Made by a program: the position numbers and the translations under genes. A stretch of 35,492 nucleotides of DNA from Candidatus Vogelbacteria bacterium RIFOXYD1_FULL_46_19. Its GTDB lineage: Bacteria > Patescibacteriota > Minisyncoccia > Phycocordibacterales > XYD1-FULL-46-19. Below are positions 945 through 27,874 of this stretch, in pieces. The notes under the pieces are model-generated. The model did not search any database, had not been told where the DNA came from, and saw only the letters and a program-made list of their open reading frames with translations. The stretch covers positions 1 to 35,492 of the forward strand of contig MHTK01000008.1 in assembly GCA_001824825.1 (NCBI GenBank). Reading direction: 5' to 3'. Position 1 is the stretch's first letter; each line of letters opens with the position of its first letter.

Positions 945-1919
945 TTACGGTAAATACACTTCCTCTAGTCGGACTCCCTCGCCACCACGAAGCCATAAGC
1001 GTAACAACATTGGGCCGGCGGTACCCTTTAACCTAGCCTCCAACTCCGCTACGGTTCCACCAATCGGTCTCGCCTCTTGCTGTAAAATAATTTGAGTCTC
1101 TGGTGTCAGTTTAATATTTTCCGTCTCTACTTCTTGATTGCGAATATAATAATCCTGCTCAAGTTCCTGGTTACAATCTGCAGCAGCAGCCGCTTCACAG
1201 TCGGCCAAGGCGGCCGCTTTGGCCACCTCACCTGTTAGCAACTCCACAAAGTCAACGGTGATTTGAGAAGCGTCCGCCACCACCTCAACTCTTTCCACCA
1301 AGGCTACCCTTTCCTCAGTTTGTCCCACTGTCCGGACTATCTCTAATGAACTCGCTACCTGCTTGGCTAAATCTTCCGCCTCCGGACCGGTGTAAAAAGC
1401 CGGTTCTACTGACAAGATCGCTAACTCTGGATCCGCCAATTGATGGGAAAAATTGAAAGCATAAACTGGTCCCCACTGGTCATTAAGAGCTTCTCCAGAT
1501 TCAAAATTTTCATGGACTCGATTCCAAATTAAGCGTTCACCAAGAAAATTTTCATCGGTCATAAAACTGTCCCGTTCTACAATATCGGTGCAATAAAGTG
1601 TTTCAGTTGGTCCATCGGCTGCACACATATTACGCAACTGGTCGGTCACAAAATCGTTATAACTATTAAAACCAACAGCCGCCCCCGCGGTGTATAGTCG
1701 AACATTAACCAAAGCCTCAAACTCCTCTCCTTGTCGTCGACCCAGGGCAAGCGATGAGGGCTGATACTCCACTAATTCGTAATCGGCCGGATAAGAAAAA
1801 GTGTAACCATAAACTGTACTTTGGTAAGTTTCCCCAGCTCCTGATGAACCAAGCCAAAGAGTAAGACCTAATAAAACAATCACCACTAATAATACTCCAA
1901 TGATTAATTTTTTAGACAT
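945..1919 (-). CDS. hypothetical membrane-anchored extracytoplasmic protein
   Basis: 324 aa ORF, N-terminal TM/signal anchor, YGYTFSYPADYE motif common in secreted CPR hypothetical proteins. Confidence 0.8.
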   Translation of the reverse strand: MSKKLIIGVLLVVIVLLGLTLWLGSSGAGETYQSTVYGYTFSYPADYELVEYQPSSLALGRRQGEEFEALVNVRLYTAGAAVGFNSYNDFVTDQLRNMCAADGPTETLYCTDIVERDSFMTDENFLGERLIWNRVHENFESGEALNDQWGPVYAFNFSHQLADPELAILSVEPAFYTGPEAEDLAKQVASSLEIVRTVGQTEERVALVERVEVVADASQITVDFVELLTGEVAKAAALADCEAAAAADCNQELEQDYYIRNQEVETENIKLTPETQIILQQEARPIGGTVAELEARLKGTAGPMLLRLWLRGGEGVRLEEVYLP

Positions 1920-3534: not shown

Positions 3535-4458
3535 TTAGCTTGCCGCAAACTCTCGGAAGGCGTTTAAAGCCGCTTGATTCCTTCCAATCTCATACTGGAG
3601 CTGGAGGACGCGTGCTTCCAACTGTGTGATTGTCTGAAGCAACATGGCTTCAGTCGAGTTTTCCGTTGCCCCTTCCATCGGTAACACCACCAGACTTGCC
3701 TCTTCAATTGTTTGCTCAGTTGGATCCCGTTTGACCTCCATCACCTGAATGACTTCAGGAATCGACGGGGCCGGACGTCCTAAGAGCGCGCAACCTTTCG
3801 CAGTCAATTCAACTGTACGAGGTTCAACCTTACGCCGATAGATTACGTATTGACCTCGCTTAAGTTTGATCAGGACTTGATCAATTTCGGCCGGAGTTGG
3901 TTCCTTACCGATCAGATCTTTCAAAATAGACTTGATCGACACAGCAGATACCAAGACCGGCGATGTAGGTTGGGGCCAAACCCCTAGCAGTAAAAGGGTT
4001 ACGATATCCAAGTCTTCAAACATCTCGGACACGGTAATACCCTTTTTGTGACCCGCTGATTTTTGTGCCGAGTGGCCATTACGGCCACCTGATCCCAGCT
4101 TCTCCATCACCTTCACAGTTGATTTCTCCACGATCGGTTCCTTTCCGCCCGCGACGGCTAACTTGTTGTACAATTGAACCAGAGTTAAGCGACAATTCTG
4201 GGCTGGCCGAAGATAACACTTTCGGGATGTTGTGTTATCGCCCGACTGAATTCCAAAAGATATTCGCAAATGTTTCCTATCCAACCCAATCAAACGAAAT
4301 GACTTCAGATGATGAGTACCTTTAACCGCCGCTCCAAGCATGATGATCCAGGTCAAGTTCAAATCTAAGCCAGCCCGAGCAAACTCCCCGGCAATGAGAC
4401 TCTCAATTCCCTTTGGAATGGGGGTAGAATGGTGGCCCAACTTAATCTTGATTGGCAC
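3535..4458 (-). CDS. hypothetical protein; possible wHTH-like central region and C-terminal coiled coil
   Basis: 307 aa ORF, GTG start with AAAGGAG upstream; LLQTITQLEARVLQLQYEIGRNQAALNAF coiled-coil-like tail. Confidence 0.75.
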   Translation of the reverse strand: MPIKIKLGHHSTPIPKGIESLIAGEFARAGLDLNLTWIIMLGAAVKGTHHLKSFRLIGLDRKHLRISFGIQSGDNTTSRKCYLRPAQNCRLTLVQLYNKLAVAGGKEPIVEKSTVKVMEKLGSGGRNGHSAQKSAGHKKGITVSEMFEDLDIVTLLLLGVWPQPTSPVLVSAVSIKSILKDLIGKEPTPAEIDQVLIKLKRGQYVIYRRKVEPRTVELTAKGCALLGRPAPSIPEVIQVMEVKRDPTEQTIEEASLVVLPMEGATENSTEAMLLQTITQLEARVLQLQYEIGRNQAALNAFREFAAS

Positions 4459-19875: not shown

Positions 19876-20592
19876 TCACTGTTGCATGGCTGCCACAAGG
19901 CGTGCCCAGTTCTTCTTCACTTCGAGCTCGAGCTTGCCGGCCACGATATCGGCGGCAACTTCAGGATCGTCCTGTTTGTACTCGGGATAGGCTTGCCGAA
20001 TGGCGGCAACGACAGGTAGACCCTGATAGGTCGTGTCGTAAATCGGAGAGCGATTGAGCGCCCCAACTAGGAGCACAATGTTCGCTCCAGTGGCATGGAT
20101 TTCCGCGAGAGTGTGGTCGGTATTCTGGAAGTTGTTGTAAACATCTTCCGCGATTGCCACCCGCTCCCCCGGCTCAAAATCGAACTGCGAGAGGTCCCAG
20201 GTGTATTCCTGTTTCTTGCCCGCTTCCGTCGGTTTTGGCTTCTTGTCCGCATAGACGAACTTTTTGCCGGCGACGAGCGCCAGCATCTGTCCGAACGTCC
20301 GACCACCATGTGGAATGCCACAGACAGTCTCAAACGTATCGAGCAGTCCCTGATCACTGAGCTTCTGGCAGGCGGCCTCGGCGAAGGCAAGAACCACTTT
20401 CGGATGACGTTCGATTCGGCGGAAGTTTAAGTAAATGTCGCCGACCAAATTTCGTCCCTGGTCGTCCTTTCCTGCGTACGGGACCAAAGGTCCAGTACGG
20501 ACGGAGCCCTGCTTGGGGCAAATATACACGGCGTTGCAGCGCTTGGCGAGCTCCAGGAGATCTTCCCCTGGTGTGGGAATGATTGCTTCCAT
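19876..20592 (-). CDS. pyrE: orotate phosphoribosyltransferase-like protein
   Basis: PRTase architecture with GERVAIAEDVYNNFQNTDHT; 30 bp upstream of pyrF on the same strand; SD GAAAGGGG before MEAIIPT. Confidence 0.7.
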   Translation of the reverse strand: MEAIIPTPGEDLLELAKRCNAVYICPKQGSVRTGPLVPYAGKDDQGRNLVGDIYLNFRRIERHPKVVLAFAEAACQKLSDQGLLDTFETVCGIPHGGRTFGQMLALVAGKKFVYADKKPKPTEAGKKQEYTWDLSQFDFEPGERVAIAEDVYNNFQNTDHTLAEIHATGANIVLLVGALNRSPIYDTTYQGLPVVAAIRQAYPEYKQDDPEVAADIVAGKLELEVKKNWARLVAAMQQ

Positions 20593-20707
20593 AGTTTTTC
20601 CCCTTTCAAAGGTCAAATTAAGCGTTTTGAGGCAACGCTTTGGCCTGGTCGAAAATCGACTCTAGCAAAAACACTATCGCAAAAAAAATATAATGTAAAG
20701 AAGACAA

Positions 20708-20740: not shown

Positions 20741-21081
20741 CCACCTGCCCTGCAAGGCACGAGCAGGCAGGTACTTTTCCACCTCGCTTCGCTCGTTAAA
20801 AATTAACTGAGATAGGACTAGGAATCTTTCCTTACAGGAACAGTACAGGCTTCACAACTCGTTTCGCTACGCTCACTGCGATATGTTCAGCCTCTTCGAG
20901 TCCTAGACGCGAGACAAGCAGTTGTCTCGCTTTCAGGACTCTTTCCCTACGGGAACTGTACACCTTTTGGCTAAAATTTTCACTAGTTCAATTTTAGGCT
21001 CAAAAGCTTTTCGAGTCCTAGCCGGAGTGCCACCCAGGCACTCCTTCCCGCAGCAAAGCTCACGCTTCGCTTTCGCTTTGC

Positions 21082-21124
21082 TGCGGGACTAGGACTCGAA
21101 CCTAGATAGTCAGCTCCAAAAGCT
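21082..21124 (-). pseudogene. 3'-half copy of tRNA-Gln (anticodon arm to acceptor)
   Basis: 43-nt exact match to the 3' part of the intact tRNA: agcttttggagctgactatctaggttcgagtcctagtcccgca. Confidence 0.9.
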
Positions 21125-21152
21125 CCCTATTTCCGGTTCTTCCGACCAAAGC

Positions 21153-21222
21153 TGCGGGACTAGGACTCGAACCTAGATAGTCAGCTCCAAAAGCTGATGT
21201 CCTACCATTAGACGATCCCGCA
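21153..21222 (-). tRNA. tRNA-Gln (anticodon UUG)
   Basis: Cloverleaf: TGCGGGA/TCCCGCA acceptor, GTCT/GGAC D stem, TCAGC-TTTTGGA-GCTGA anticodon arm, CTAGG-TTCGAGT-CCTAG T arm. Confidence 0.92.
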
Positions 21223-21290
21223 GCTTTACCCAGAAGAACAACGGAAATTCCTTCGGATCAGATGAAAAGTAAAGCAGTTCACTTTTCATT

Positions 21291-21350
21291 CCCACCATTA
21301 GACCTGTCCGCCACCGCAAGCTCAGGCGTTGCGGGCGGGCGATCCCGCAA
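21291..21350 (-). pseudogene. 5'-half copy of tRNA-Gln interrupted by a hairpin insert
   Basis: Minus: TTGCGGGATC-[GCCCGCCCGCAACGCC...GGCGGACAG]-GTCTAATGGTGGGA versus TGCGGGATC-GTCTAATGGTAGGA. Confidence 0.7.
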
Positions 21351-25952: not shown

Positions 25953-26900
25953 CTACTTCGACTTAGAAAAATAATCAACTAGGCCGCGGTAAGTAGCCTC
26001 GGCTAAAATTGGCAGGAATTTTTCTCGCCGGGCCAGCAAATAATATTTAGACTCATAAATATAACCGTACTCCACCAACAGGGCGGGGTGAGTTTGGGAG
26101 TTATGAGATCCAACCGCAATCAAATCTTGAGTTTCAATAATGACATCCGCCTCTAGGGGAAAATTACTAGGTGGACTAACACGACCTAAAGCGGCCGCCA
26201 AACTGTCGCCGGCAATTTTACTACTAGTGGCATTAGTAAACTGTCGCTCCGGAATATAAATAGCAAAACCCTGGTACTTACCAATATGATCTTTTAACTC
26301 ACGTGGATAATCGTTGAAGTGGAGGTGGAGGGCGAGGTCCACCTCATTATCATTAGCCCATTTATTAATGCCATATAAAATGAAAGCAGTCTGGTTGGGA
26401 GCATAATTATGGTCGACAGCGGGTTCGGTCGCCGTAATGGCGCCGGTTTTTAATAACTGATCCATAGCTTGGCGCACCGTTCGACGAAAGCTTAAAATCT
26501 GAACTTCAGCTGAAGAAAAATACTGTTGAAATTCTTCCGTGTATTCACCAGTGTCGTAGTCTCTGGTGGTAATAACTTCAAACCGGCCATCGGCTTTGAG
26601 TTCTTTGGCAATAACTCGTGCCAATTCCCGGGCCACTTGCTCTTCGGTTAACTCCTTAAAAAAACCACCTCGAGACACTAGGTCATGACCAGGAACCAGT
26701 AGAATTTTATAAGGCTTAGCCGTAAAATCAAACTCCGCTGACACCACCGTTTGATCCGGCCAGGCAATTTGATCGGTGGTAGCCACAGGCACCGGGAGCC
26801 TTGATCTATGGTTAGAGCTCCAGTACCACCAAGTCACCAACAGCACCACTATGACCATCACTATGCCGCCACTAATTAAATGAGACTTAGTGATGATCAT
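25953..26900 (-). CDS. N-acetylmuramoyl-L-alanine amidase (Amidase_3-like)
   Basis: ILLVPGHDL, LALHLHFNDYPRE, ALLVEYGYIYESKYY. Confidence 0.8.
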   Translation of the reverse strand: MIITKSHLISGGIVMVIVVLLVTWWYWSSNHRSRLPVPVATTDQIAWPDQTVVSAEFDFTAKPYKILLVPGHDLVSRGGFFKELTEEQVARELARVIAKELKADGRFEVITTRDYDTGEYTEEFQQYFSSAEVQILSFRRTVRQAMDQLLKTGAITATEPAVDHNYAPNQTAFILYGINKWANDNEVDLALHLHFNDYPRELKDHIGKYQGFAIYIPERQFTNATSSKIAGDSLAAALGRVSPPSNFPLEADVIIETQDLIAVGSHNSQTHPALLVEYGYIYESKYYLLARREKFLPILAEATYRGLVDYFSKSK

Positions 26901-27874
26901 AAAGAGGAAGCAGAACTAGTGGCAACCAATTCGTCTCCGCCCTCGGTATTGGCGGGACCAGGACGATAAGAAAACTGATCGGTAAATTTATAAAATATTT
27001 TTTTACCAAACCGCAAATCAATATATTCCAGTTTGGCCCCAGCCTGACCTTTCTGATCGATAAAATCAGCGGCTGACCACACCGCTGCTAAGTAGGTGGC
27101 AACTACCGACAAGTCCTGTTGGTCGTTCCATTTAAGTTGCCACTGGTCCCGACTGATTGGGCTACGCTCGACGATATGAAAAGCGTAGTCGCCGAGTGGT
27201 AAAATCTCCACTTCACTGACTTCCACTCGGCTTAACTTAGCTGTCCGTAAAATTTCAGGCATGGCTTCAATAGCTAGGACTAAACGCTGGAAACTGGCTA
27301 TCTCCAAAGGTCTAGTACCTAAAGGAGACGCCGGTAAGGAGCTATTTATAATAAACATAATATTGTCGGAAAAAGTGGGAGCTGTGGAAAACAGATAGCC
27401 AGATGAGTCAGCCAAAAAACAACTCTGCTCAACTCCAGTGGCACACCAAATATAAGCCGCCGACCGCTCCTTCACCTCAATTATTAGCTCTTGCCAATTA
27501 TTGACTTTAAAATTCAAAGACTCCACATACCCCGAGGTTTCTAAAATATCTTTAATGATAGCTTGTTTGGGATAAGTGAGAGCCGTGGACTTAGGGATCA
27601 ACCACCAGTAACTTTCTTGCAAGTGCCTGCTCGCAATCTCCATCACCACTTGAGCGGAAACGGTTTGATTGCCTACAACTTTAACTTCACTGATAGTAAA
27701 CCGCTCATGATGCAAGCCCCAAAAGACACCACCAATCAATAACAGCAAAAAAATGCCGGTGGTATAAAACCGGACAACTCGTTTTCGCCTAGTCTGCAAG
27801 CGCTTCTTCCGTTTAATCTCCTCCCGCGCGTCAGTATTGGCTCTAGTTATCGAAACCGATTTTGGTCTGTCCAA
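26897..27874 (-). CDS. FtsQ-like POTRA-domain division protein
   Basis: Single N-terminal TM then FTISEVKVVGNQTVSAQVVMEIA (POTRA) and VKERSAAYIWC. Confidence 0.75.
   Translation of the reverse strand: MDRPKSVSITRANTDAREEIKRKKRLQTRRKRVVRFYTTGIFLLLLIGGVFWGLHHERFTISEVKVVGNQTVSAQVVMEIASRHLQESYWWLIPKSTALTYPKQAIIKDILETSGYVESLNFKVNNWQELIIEVKERSAAYIWCATGVEQSCFLADSSGYLFSTAPTFSDNIMFIINSSLPASPLGTRPLEIASFQRLVLAIEAMPEILRTAKLSRVEVSEVEILPLGDYAFHIVERSPISRDQWQLKWNDQQDLSVVATYLAAVWSAADFIDQKGQAGAKLEYIDLRFGKKIFYKFTDQFSYRPGPANTEGGDELVATSSASSL

Follow-up and report, generated by a model that had tools for sequence, protein, structure and literature searches.

A tRNA-Gln locus of a Vogelbacteria genome, probably invaded by small structured elements with target-derived arms

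Structured elements downstream of a nested tRNA-Gln

The 35,492-nucleotide (nt) stretch of DNA analysed here (the window) is located on contig 8 of the genome of Candidatus Vogelbacteria bacterium RIFOXYD1_FULL_46_19 (708 kb, 99% complete). It carries an intact glutamine transfer RNA gene (tRNA-Gln) nested within a second, outer tRNA-Gln. The main feature of this locus is the tRNA-linked structured mobile elements just downstream, where two ~91-nt structured units directly follow the 3' half of the outer tRNA-Gln. These hairpin elements belong to a previously undescribed family, which is confined to this order of Paceibacteria and near-absent elsewhere in the phylum. Small, structured and non-autonomous mobile elements, the arms of which derive from the target, have probably invaded this tRNA-Gln more than once. 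The element region includes the following features, all on the minus strand:

21080-21124 (-): 3' half of the outer tRNA-Gln, 45 nt identical to tRNA nt 28-72; also the T segment of the element
21046-21059 (-): outer acceptor strand and 7 nt of trailer in reverse complement, paired with 21075-21088
21024-21044 (-): 8-bp hairpin splitting the reversed arm at the acceptor/T-stem boundary
20932-21022 (-): element unit 1, with reversed T arm (A), P2, GUAC, P3 and direct copy (T'); 80.2 bits to model R1
20909-20930 (-): hairpin of unit 2 (GCGAGACAACTGCTTGTCTCGC)
20817-20907 (-): element unit 2, with A, P2, GUAC, P3 and T'; 86.8 bits to model R1

At an occupied site the order is T - spacer - A - core - T', where T stands for the 3' arm of the tRNA, left intact. 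This arm is repeated twice: in reverse as A, in which a short hairpin often intervenes, and in direct orientation as T'. The elements are non-coding and measure ~90-130 nt across the family. T, spacer and A form continuous hairpins, and the spacer is often terminator-like. The core of ~75 nt folds into P2 and P3 of a three-way junction, which is supported by 32 aligned units. P1 is the reversed T arm paired with T', P2 bears tandem G.A pairs, and P3 consists of five base pairs and a GUA triloop; the junction joiners (GAA, GUACNG and AGA) are conserved. In the alignment, 86.5% of the cells are paired. Double-change cells numbered 195, compared with 72 after shuffling and 19-55 in slid controls, and the observed covariation score was matched by no shuffle. 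The alignment seed was gathered with a pattern that fixes most of P3, and therefore P3 alone is weaker evidence; variants outside the pattern still keep the helix. An RNA read from the opposite strand is mildly disfavoured by the tandem G.A pairs, the G.U pairs of P1 and the GNA triloop, which read on the tRNA strand, although P2b has many A.C cells.

Distribution of the family

Copies were counted with R1, the covariance model of the element family. This genome has 20 copies. Matches were found in 86 of the 147 genomes of the order, with 1-27 copies in each genome where they are present. Phylum-wide, 8 of 290 genomes gave matches; seven of these fall within the order, and the remaining one is weak. 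The exact core motif was present in 52 stretches from a collection of 85,462 species, all of them Parcubacteria or unnamed contigs of that type from metagenome-assembled genomes. The named matches include Nomura-, Yonath-, Zambryski-, Taylor-, Kaiser-, Vogel- and Lloydbacteria. The viral contigs searched for the core motif gave zero matches. In Rfam, tRNA was the only gathering-level match at the locus and the family has no entry; permissive Rfam scans of the window region and related loci gave no group I intron match. Searches of the open-access literature (subscription papers were outside the scope) found no account of tRNA-linked elements in Parcubacteria or Patescibacteria.

Linkage to tRNA genes and cognate arms

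A same-strand tRNA is located within 450 nt upstream of 76 of the 93 distinct units, mostly at 40-95 nt, and more than 30 isoacceptors are represented. Seven of the 17 units without an upstream tRNA sit at contig edges. In the Vogelbacteria genome, 18 of the 20 elements lie within ~240 nt downstream of a same-strand tRNA, at 16 of the 39 tRNAs; one further element lies behind what we take to be the 3' end of the transfer-messenger RNA (tmRNA). Units behind tmRNA-like 3' ends were also seen at L098 (G000:C5:28529), L175/L198 and L080, and tmRNA genes seem to be targets too.

The reversed arm is cognate to its own tRNA. It matches the T arm of that tRNA at 307 of 343 sites (20,000 permutations gave a mean of 199 and a maximum of 227), its acceptor part has 6.1 of 7 matches (null 4.6, null maximum 5.0), and the exact complement of A and T has a median of 11 nt (null 5.8). 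At the sites where T and T' differ, A agrees with T 18 times and with T' 5 times. All these figures overstate the certainty, because a genome's related copies lack independence. Unusual T loops are mirrored by A, for example TTCAAATCC in L091 and GTCAGCACCCATCA of the tRNA-Asp in L182. Within one genome, elements behind different isoacceptors have near-identical cores and different arms. The T-loop region of tRNA-Asp in genome G046 (L182/L177) is aberrant (GTCAGCACCCA), and the element arm tracks it over 14 nt.

The elements might alternatively serve the host as a cis RNA device, in which A has two alternative partners: the tRNA 3' arm, whose pairing unfolds the tRNA, and T', whose pairing releases it. 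The device would be a folding or termination switch or a processing trailer. The preference of A for the functional tRNA copy T over T', the strong and conserved three-way junction, the continuous T-spacer-A hairpins with their often terminator-like spacer and the number of tRNAs with an element in this genome all suit such a device. It is nevertheless unlikely, since the copy number ranges from 0 to 27 within the order, orthologous tRNAs of one genus differ in element presence, and relatives have bare tRNA-Gln genes. Moreover, the same arrangement is found at the end of a protein gene, and cassettes also exist without arms.

Filled and empty sites

Filled and empty sites were compared in the same-genus pair G046/G123, in which many flanks are 85-93% identical. 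At tRNA-Val(gac) the pair has what distinguishes a mobile element, namely filled and empty orthologous sites with a target duplication. The empty site of G123 reads GAATCCTCTATCGCCCAC directly followed by CGTATAATT; G046 adds a 112-nt unit and a second GAATCCTCTATCGCCCAC, so that 18 nt of the tRNA 3' end are duplicated. The flanks of the two genomes are identical over 70/70 nt upstream and 36/36 nt downstream. The inserted element shows the family hairpin, P1, P2 and P3 in its fold.

The T-A-core-T' arrangement was also found at the 3' end of a protein gene, presumably rplK. G123 has GTTGATGTGATC TAA ATCACATCAAC-core-TTGATGTGATTGGATAA, whereas the G046 ortholog has the plain end GTCGACGTGATTGGGTAA. 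This occurrence at a protein gene speaks for arms derived from the target rather than shaped by selection on tRNA folding. In a further same-genus pair (G116/G038), orthologous tRNA clusters are also unlike in element presence; the divergence of these tRNAs is too high for a base-exact empty site. The unit at tRNA-Arg(ccg) of G116 is repeated in a perfect 156-nt tandem, and arm-less cassettes in the same genome are inserted within a second structured element, which is itself also found without cassettes.

A cassette of G046 (L192, about 1450-1600) occupies the loop of a transcription terminator, the 5' arm of which is duplicated over ~20 nt. In the search for the corresponding empty site, an ortholog was found for the upstream gene only. 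At tRNA-Cys (L194 and L195), the T arm is GGCGGTTCAATTCCGCC with the element and GCGAGTGCGATTCTCGC without it; the remaining tRNA is nearly identical. This might reflect either T-arm replacement upon insertion or decay following loss, and no donor copy of the new T arm was found among the loci compared.

The nested tRNA-Gln

The remaining features of the locus, on the minus strand, are:

21341-21349 (-): outer tRNA-Gln nt 1-9 (TGCGGGATC)
21304-21340 (-): 37-nt hairpin resembling repetitive extragenic palindromic (REP) sequences, between nt 9 and nt 10 of the outer tRNA-Gln
21290-21303 (-): outer tRNA-Gln nt 10-23 (D arm), identity 13/14
21125-21289 (-): 165-nt segment that separates the outer tRNA-Gln halves and bears the intact tRNA
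21262-21289 (-): hairpin ATGAAAAGTGAACTGCTTTACTTTTCAT at the 5' end of the 165-nt segment; a homologous hairpin is present in G040
21223-21239 (-): long helix prolonging the inner tRNA acceptor stem, 5' strand
21151-21222 (-): intact inner tRNA-Gln(UUG), by ARAGORN and Rfam (RF00005, 63.9 bits)
21136-21152 (-): long helix prolonging the inner tRNA acceptor stem, 3' strand; overlaps the tRNA 3' end

The inner tRNA-Gln (21222-21151) is a complete cloverleaf by its RF00005 match, and it rests on a long helix formed by its own flanks (21239-21223 with 21152-21136). It was the sole tRNA called at the locus by Rfam and by ARAGORN, the latter a check that the initial annotation of the window had proposed. 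The outer pieces together rebuild a second tRNA-Gln. All of the pieces described in that annotation were located on the minus strand, with corrections. The copy of the 3' half is exact as claimed, although it has 45 nt and not 43. The outer tRNA is indeed split; the break is not around the anticodon arm but between the D arm and the anticodon stem, where nt 23 abuts nt 28, and the anticodon loop lies entirely in the 3' piece. A hairpin insert between nt 9 and nt 10 was confirmed at 37 nt, whereas a second hairpin insert in the outer tRNA had been overlooked; the C of the D stem is regained once this second hairpin is taken out.

The exact 45-nt repeat has a chance expectation of E = 8e-18 and is not attributable to chance. 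The 5' outer pieces are weak on their own (13/14 nt, E = 0.035; 10/10 nt, E = 0.31); they gain support from their tRNA numbering, which adjoins that of the 3' piece, and from G040, a genome outside this family with the same split layout. Since the outer halves abut in this way, one interrupted tRNA is preferred over two independent partial duplications. The 37-nt insert is a REP-like insertion and no part of a tRNA. The repeat to which it belongs is scattered through the sister genus (G013, G015); in G015 this repeat lies inside a hairpin loop, whereas the corresponding hairpin of G013 is uninterrupted.

In the proposed comparison with relatives, the tRNA-Gln is single and lacks the outer pieces in seven genomes of the same family (G002, G004, G007, G008, G009, G011 and G014). 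Nested tRNA-Gln genes were found in G040, with the split point of the window and covarying flanks around the inner tRNA; in G019, with the split in the D loop; and in G010, of the same family, where the inner tRNA lies within the outer T loop on the stem CCCCGTCACTAAGTT/AACTTAGTGACGGGG. Nesting thus recurs among these genomes, at three or more different split points. L048 and G024 also show related copies of tRNA-Gln, either partial or second ones. The insertion of a segment carrying a replacement tRNA, as suggested in the initial annotation, is the best reading of the abutting pieces and of the single-copy and nested relatives; the downstream elements, the main feature of the locus, had been missed.

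Three other explanations of the locus were considered. Tandem duplication of tRNA-Gln followed by decay, with template switching giving the inverted and direct partial copies, would require no distinct element. Direct-inverted-direct copies are the expected residue of template switching, and many relatives have partial tRNA copies up- and downstream of tRNA-Gln. This explanation is improbable, however, because a conserved covarying core is common to dozens of unrelated tRNA loci and the target alone could not supply the clean 112-nt insertion. In addition, the outer halves abut without overlap and are split elsewhere in the tRNA in relatives, and two complete tandem tRNA-Gln genes, the arrangement expected from simple duplication, were seen in none of the relatives compared.

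If the tRNA were split, trans-spliced or intron-containing, with its outer halves joined once the inner tRNA is excised, this would account for the intact acceptor and T stems of the outer tRNA in the window and for the complete identity (100%) of its 3' half to the inner tRNA. However, Rfam gave no match to group I or any other intron family, the outer acceptor strand is degenerate in G010, and an intact copy always exists. Nothing was found in favour of the trans-spliced or processed halves that the initial annotation had listed as an alternative, and this explanation is very improbable. One copy that seemingly interrupts a long open reading frame (ORF) is in fact located between two genes, a transporter and metG, and does not represent an intron in a protein gene.

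The 3' part of the tRNA is directly repeated, over 45 nt at this locus and 18 nt at tRNA-Val, in a manner reminiscent of attL/attR, which might suggest the scar of a tyrosine-integrase island at a 3' attachment site. Such a scar is hardly credible at this locus. The inserts have only 112-165 nt and no ORF, they contain a reversed target copy as well as an RNA-like core that is conserved, more than 30 isoacceptors are struck with matching arms, and the 30 window ORFs scanned include no integrase.

Possible mechanism of insertion

In the favoured explanation, invasion by small structured mobile elements, the elements insert directly behind tRNA genes and, as it seems, tmRNA genes; loops of other structured RNAs and gene ends are entered as well. 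The insertion itself could proceed as follows. The strand carrying the tRNA 3' arm may be copied back on itself to give the arm A, for example by snap-back or template-switch synthesis. Synthesis might then switch at the conserved T-loop sequence, which would provide microhomology, to the core of another unit, copy this core and return to the start of the 3' arm to give T'. The tRNA survives since its 3' end is duplicated, and the insertion is thus tolerated. In the window, a tRNA-bearing segment may have entered an older tRNA-Gln to produce the nesting, with the inner copy taking over; the outer 3' half would afterwards have served as T for two tandem units. The elements are presumably selfish and non-autonomous, and their reversed arm would be made from the target as they insert. 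A bolder proposal, which is possible but rather doubtful, is a new kind of protein-free mobile element that acquires a new address with every hop. By copying the target in reverse, its core would build a pairing arm, so that one core could lodge behind dozens of tRNA genes; the element may move by RNA-primed or snap-back synthesis.

Several observations weigh against the invasion of the locus by mobile elements. No mobilising enzyme was identified, and the 30 window ORFs scanned gave no integrase or transposase match in Pfam. Only one insertion is available as a perfectly clean filled/empty pair, together with one good second. The fresh tRNA-Val copy has one mismatch in the T loop, and its acceptor match is only 4 nt. 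The T arm of tRNA-Cys differs between G046 (filled) and G123 (empty), a difference that is not polarisable. The reversed arm could be refined by selection instead of being copied at insertion. Finally, the inner tRNA-Gln segment is not in model R1, and therefore the tRNA-in-tRNA nesting is linked to the elements by analogy, as a probable outcome of one and the same loop-insertion process or of one akin to it.

A Y1 transposase was rejected as a mover in cis, since its presence does not follow element copy number. For example, G018, G025 and G046 have 26, 18 and 21 elements, respectively, and no PF01797 match; past action or action in trans could still have contributed. Four long ORFs of the window (945-1919, 3535-4458, 19876-20616 and 26897-27874, minus strand) have no Pfam match.

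Comparison with known systems

To our knowledge, the flanks of REPs and of Rickettsia palindromic elements (RPEs) are not target copies. REP/RAYT elements are palindromes of 20-40 bp that bear a GTAG or CGTC tetranucleotide at one end, and GTAG-tagged REPs are associated with RAYT/Y1 transposases. The present elements resemble RPEs and the GTAG/CGTC REPs (PMC3733652) in that they are small, non-coding, hairpin-forming, dispersed and presumed non-autonomous, and some lie in genes. They differ from both in the outer stem, which is made of reversed and direct target copies, in their main target, the tRNA 3' arms, and in the ~75-nt three-way-junction core. They contain GUAC and a GUA triloop; unlike in GTAG-tagged REPs, Y1 does not follow the copy number. 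With respect to RPEs, the core motif search of genome contigs returned Paceibacteria-type contigs only.

Hairpin-forming repeats of sponge mitochondrial DNA (PMC2800124) and the GC-cluster-type DNA of yeast mitochondria (PMC4478555) are also invasive hairpins that vary between close relatives. They differ in being organellar, intergenic, simple hairpins, and the parts of these reports consulted describe no tRNA-templated arms. IStrons, which combine a group I intron with an insertion sequence (PMC4227781), likewise couple a structured RNA to mobility and leave the host gene unharmed. In contrast to IStrons, the present elements have no group I intron match and no protein, are far smaller, and are harmless by duplication of the tRNA end and not by splicing. 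Integrative elements at tRNA attachment sites also keep the tRNA intact by a duplicated 3' part. They are marked by an integrase and cargo between the repeats; here no integrase was found and there is no cargo, as the inserts of 112 nt (tRNA-Val) and 165 nt (window) hold no ORF. An insert of ~110 nt, an inverted target copy and the many tRNA species affected are further differences.

Paceibacteria have among the smallest bacterial genomes, and yet in many of them 10-27 copies of a non-coding element lie next to the most essential RNA genes. Should the elements move as proposed, they spread without a known enzyme, with insertion made harmless by the rebuilt tRNA end and with arms fitting any tRNA. 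This would be a new mobility mechanism. It would also account for the odd partial tRNA copies in these genomes, and annotators would be cautioned to read such tRNA fragments as footprints of insertion. If the elements instead serve the host, they would represent a tRNA-gene-linked RNA switch across an order.

Other structured repeats near the elements

A second class of tRNA-linked elements was observed at L117, L130 and L131 (G116), L031 and L227 (G013), L228 (G015) and L017 (G005). Its core (GGGGTCGGG..CCCGTGGAGG..ACCGTGGGTT) is flanked on one side by a reversed T arm and on the other by a direct T' copy, and in G116 the second-class element holds 0, 1 or 3 class-I cassettes. Arm-less cassettes of the form GTGAG-hairpin-CGCAAGACC...GTGTACAGCTCCTGTA, followed by AGGAG, are present in G046 and G123 (L183-L193, L202-L214), where they are placed at gene ends, in 5' leaders and in a terminator loop. 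The 5' strand of P3 in these cassettes is complementary to the right flank, which is often the Shine-Dalgarno-like AGGAG. Further recurrent structured repeats, such as GAGGCGGGGTCGCGAGCACTTAG...CTTAGTGACTCGTGACCA, were seen near or around cassettes at L039/L062, L049, L076, L133 and L134.
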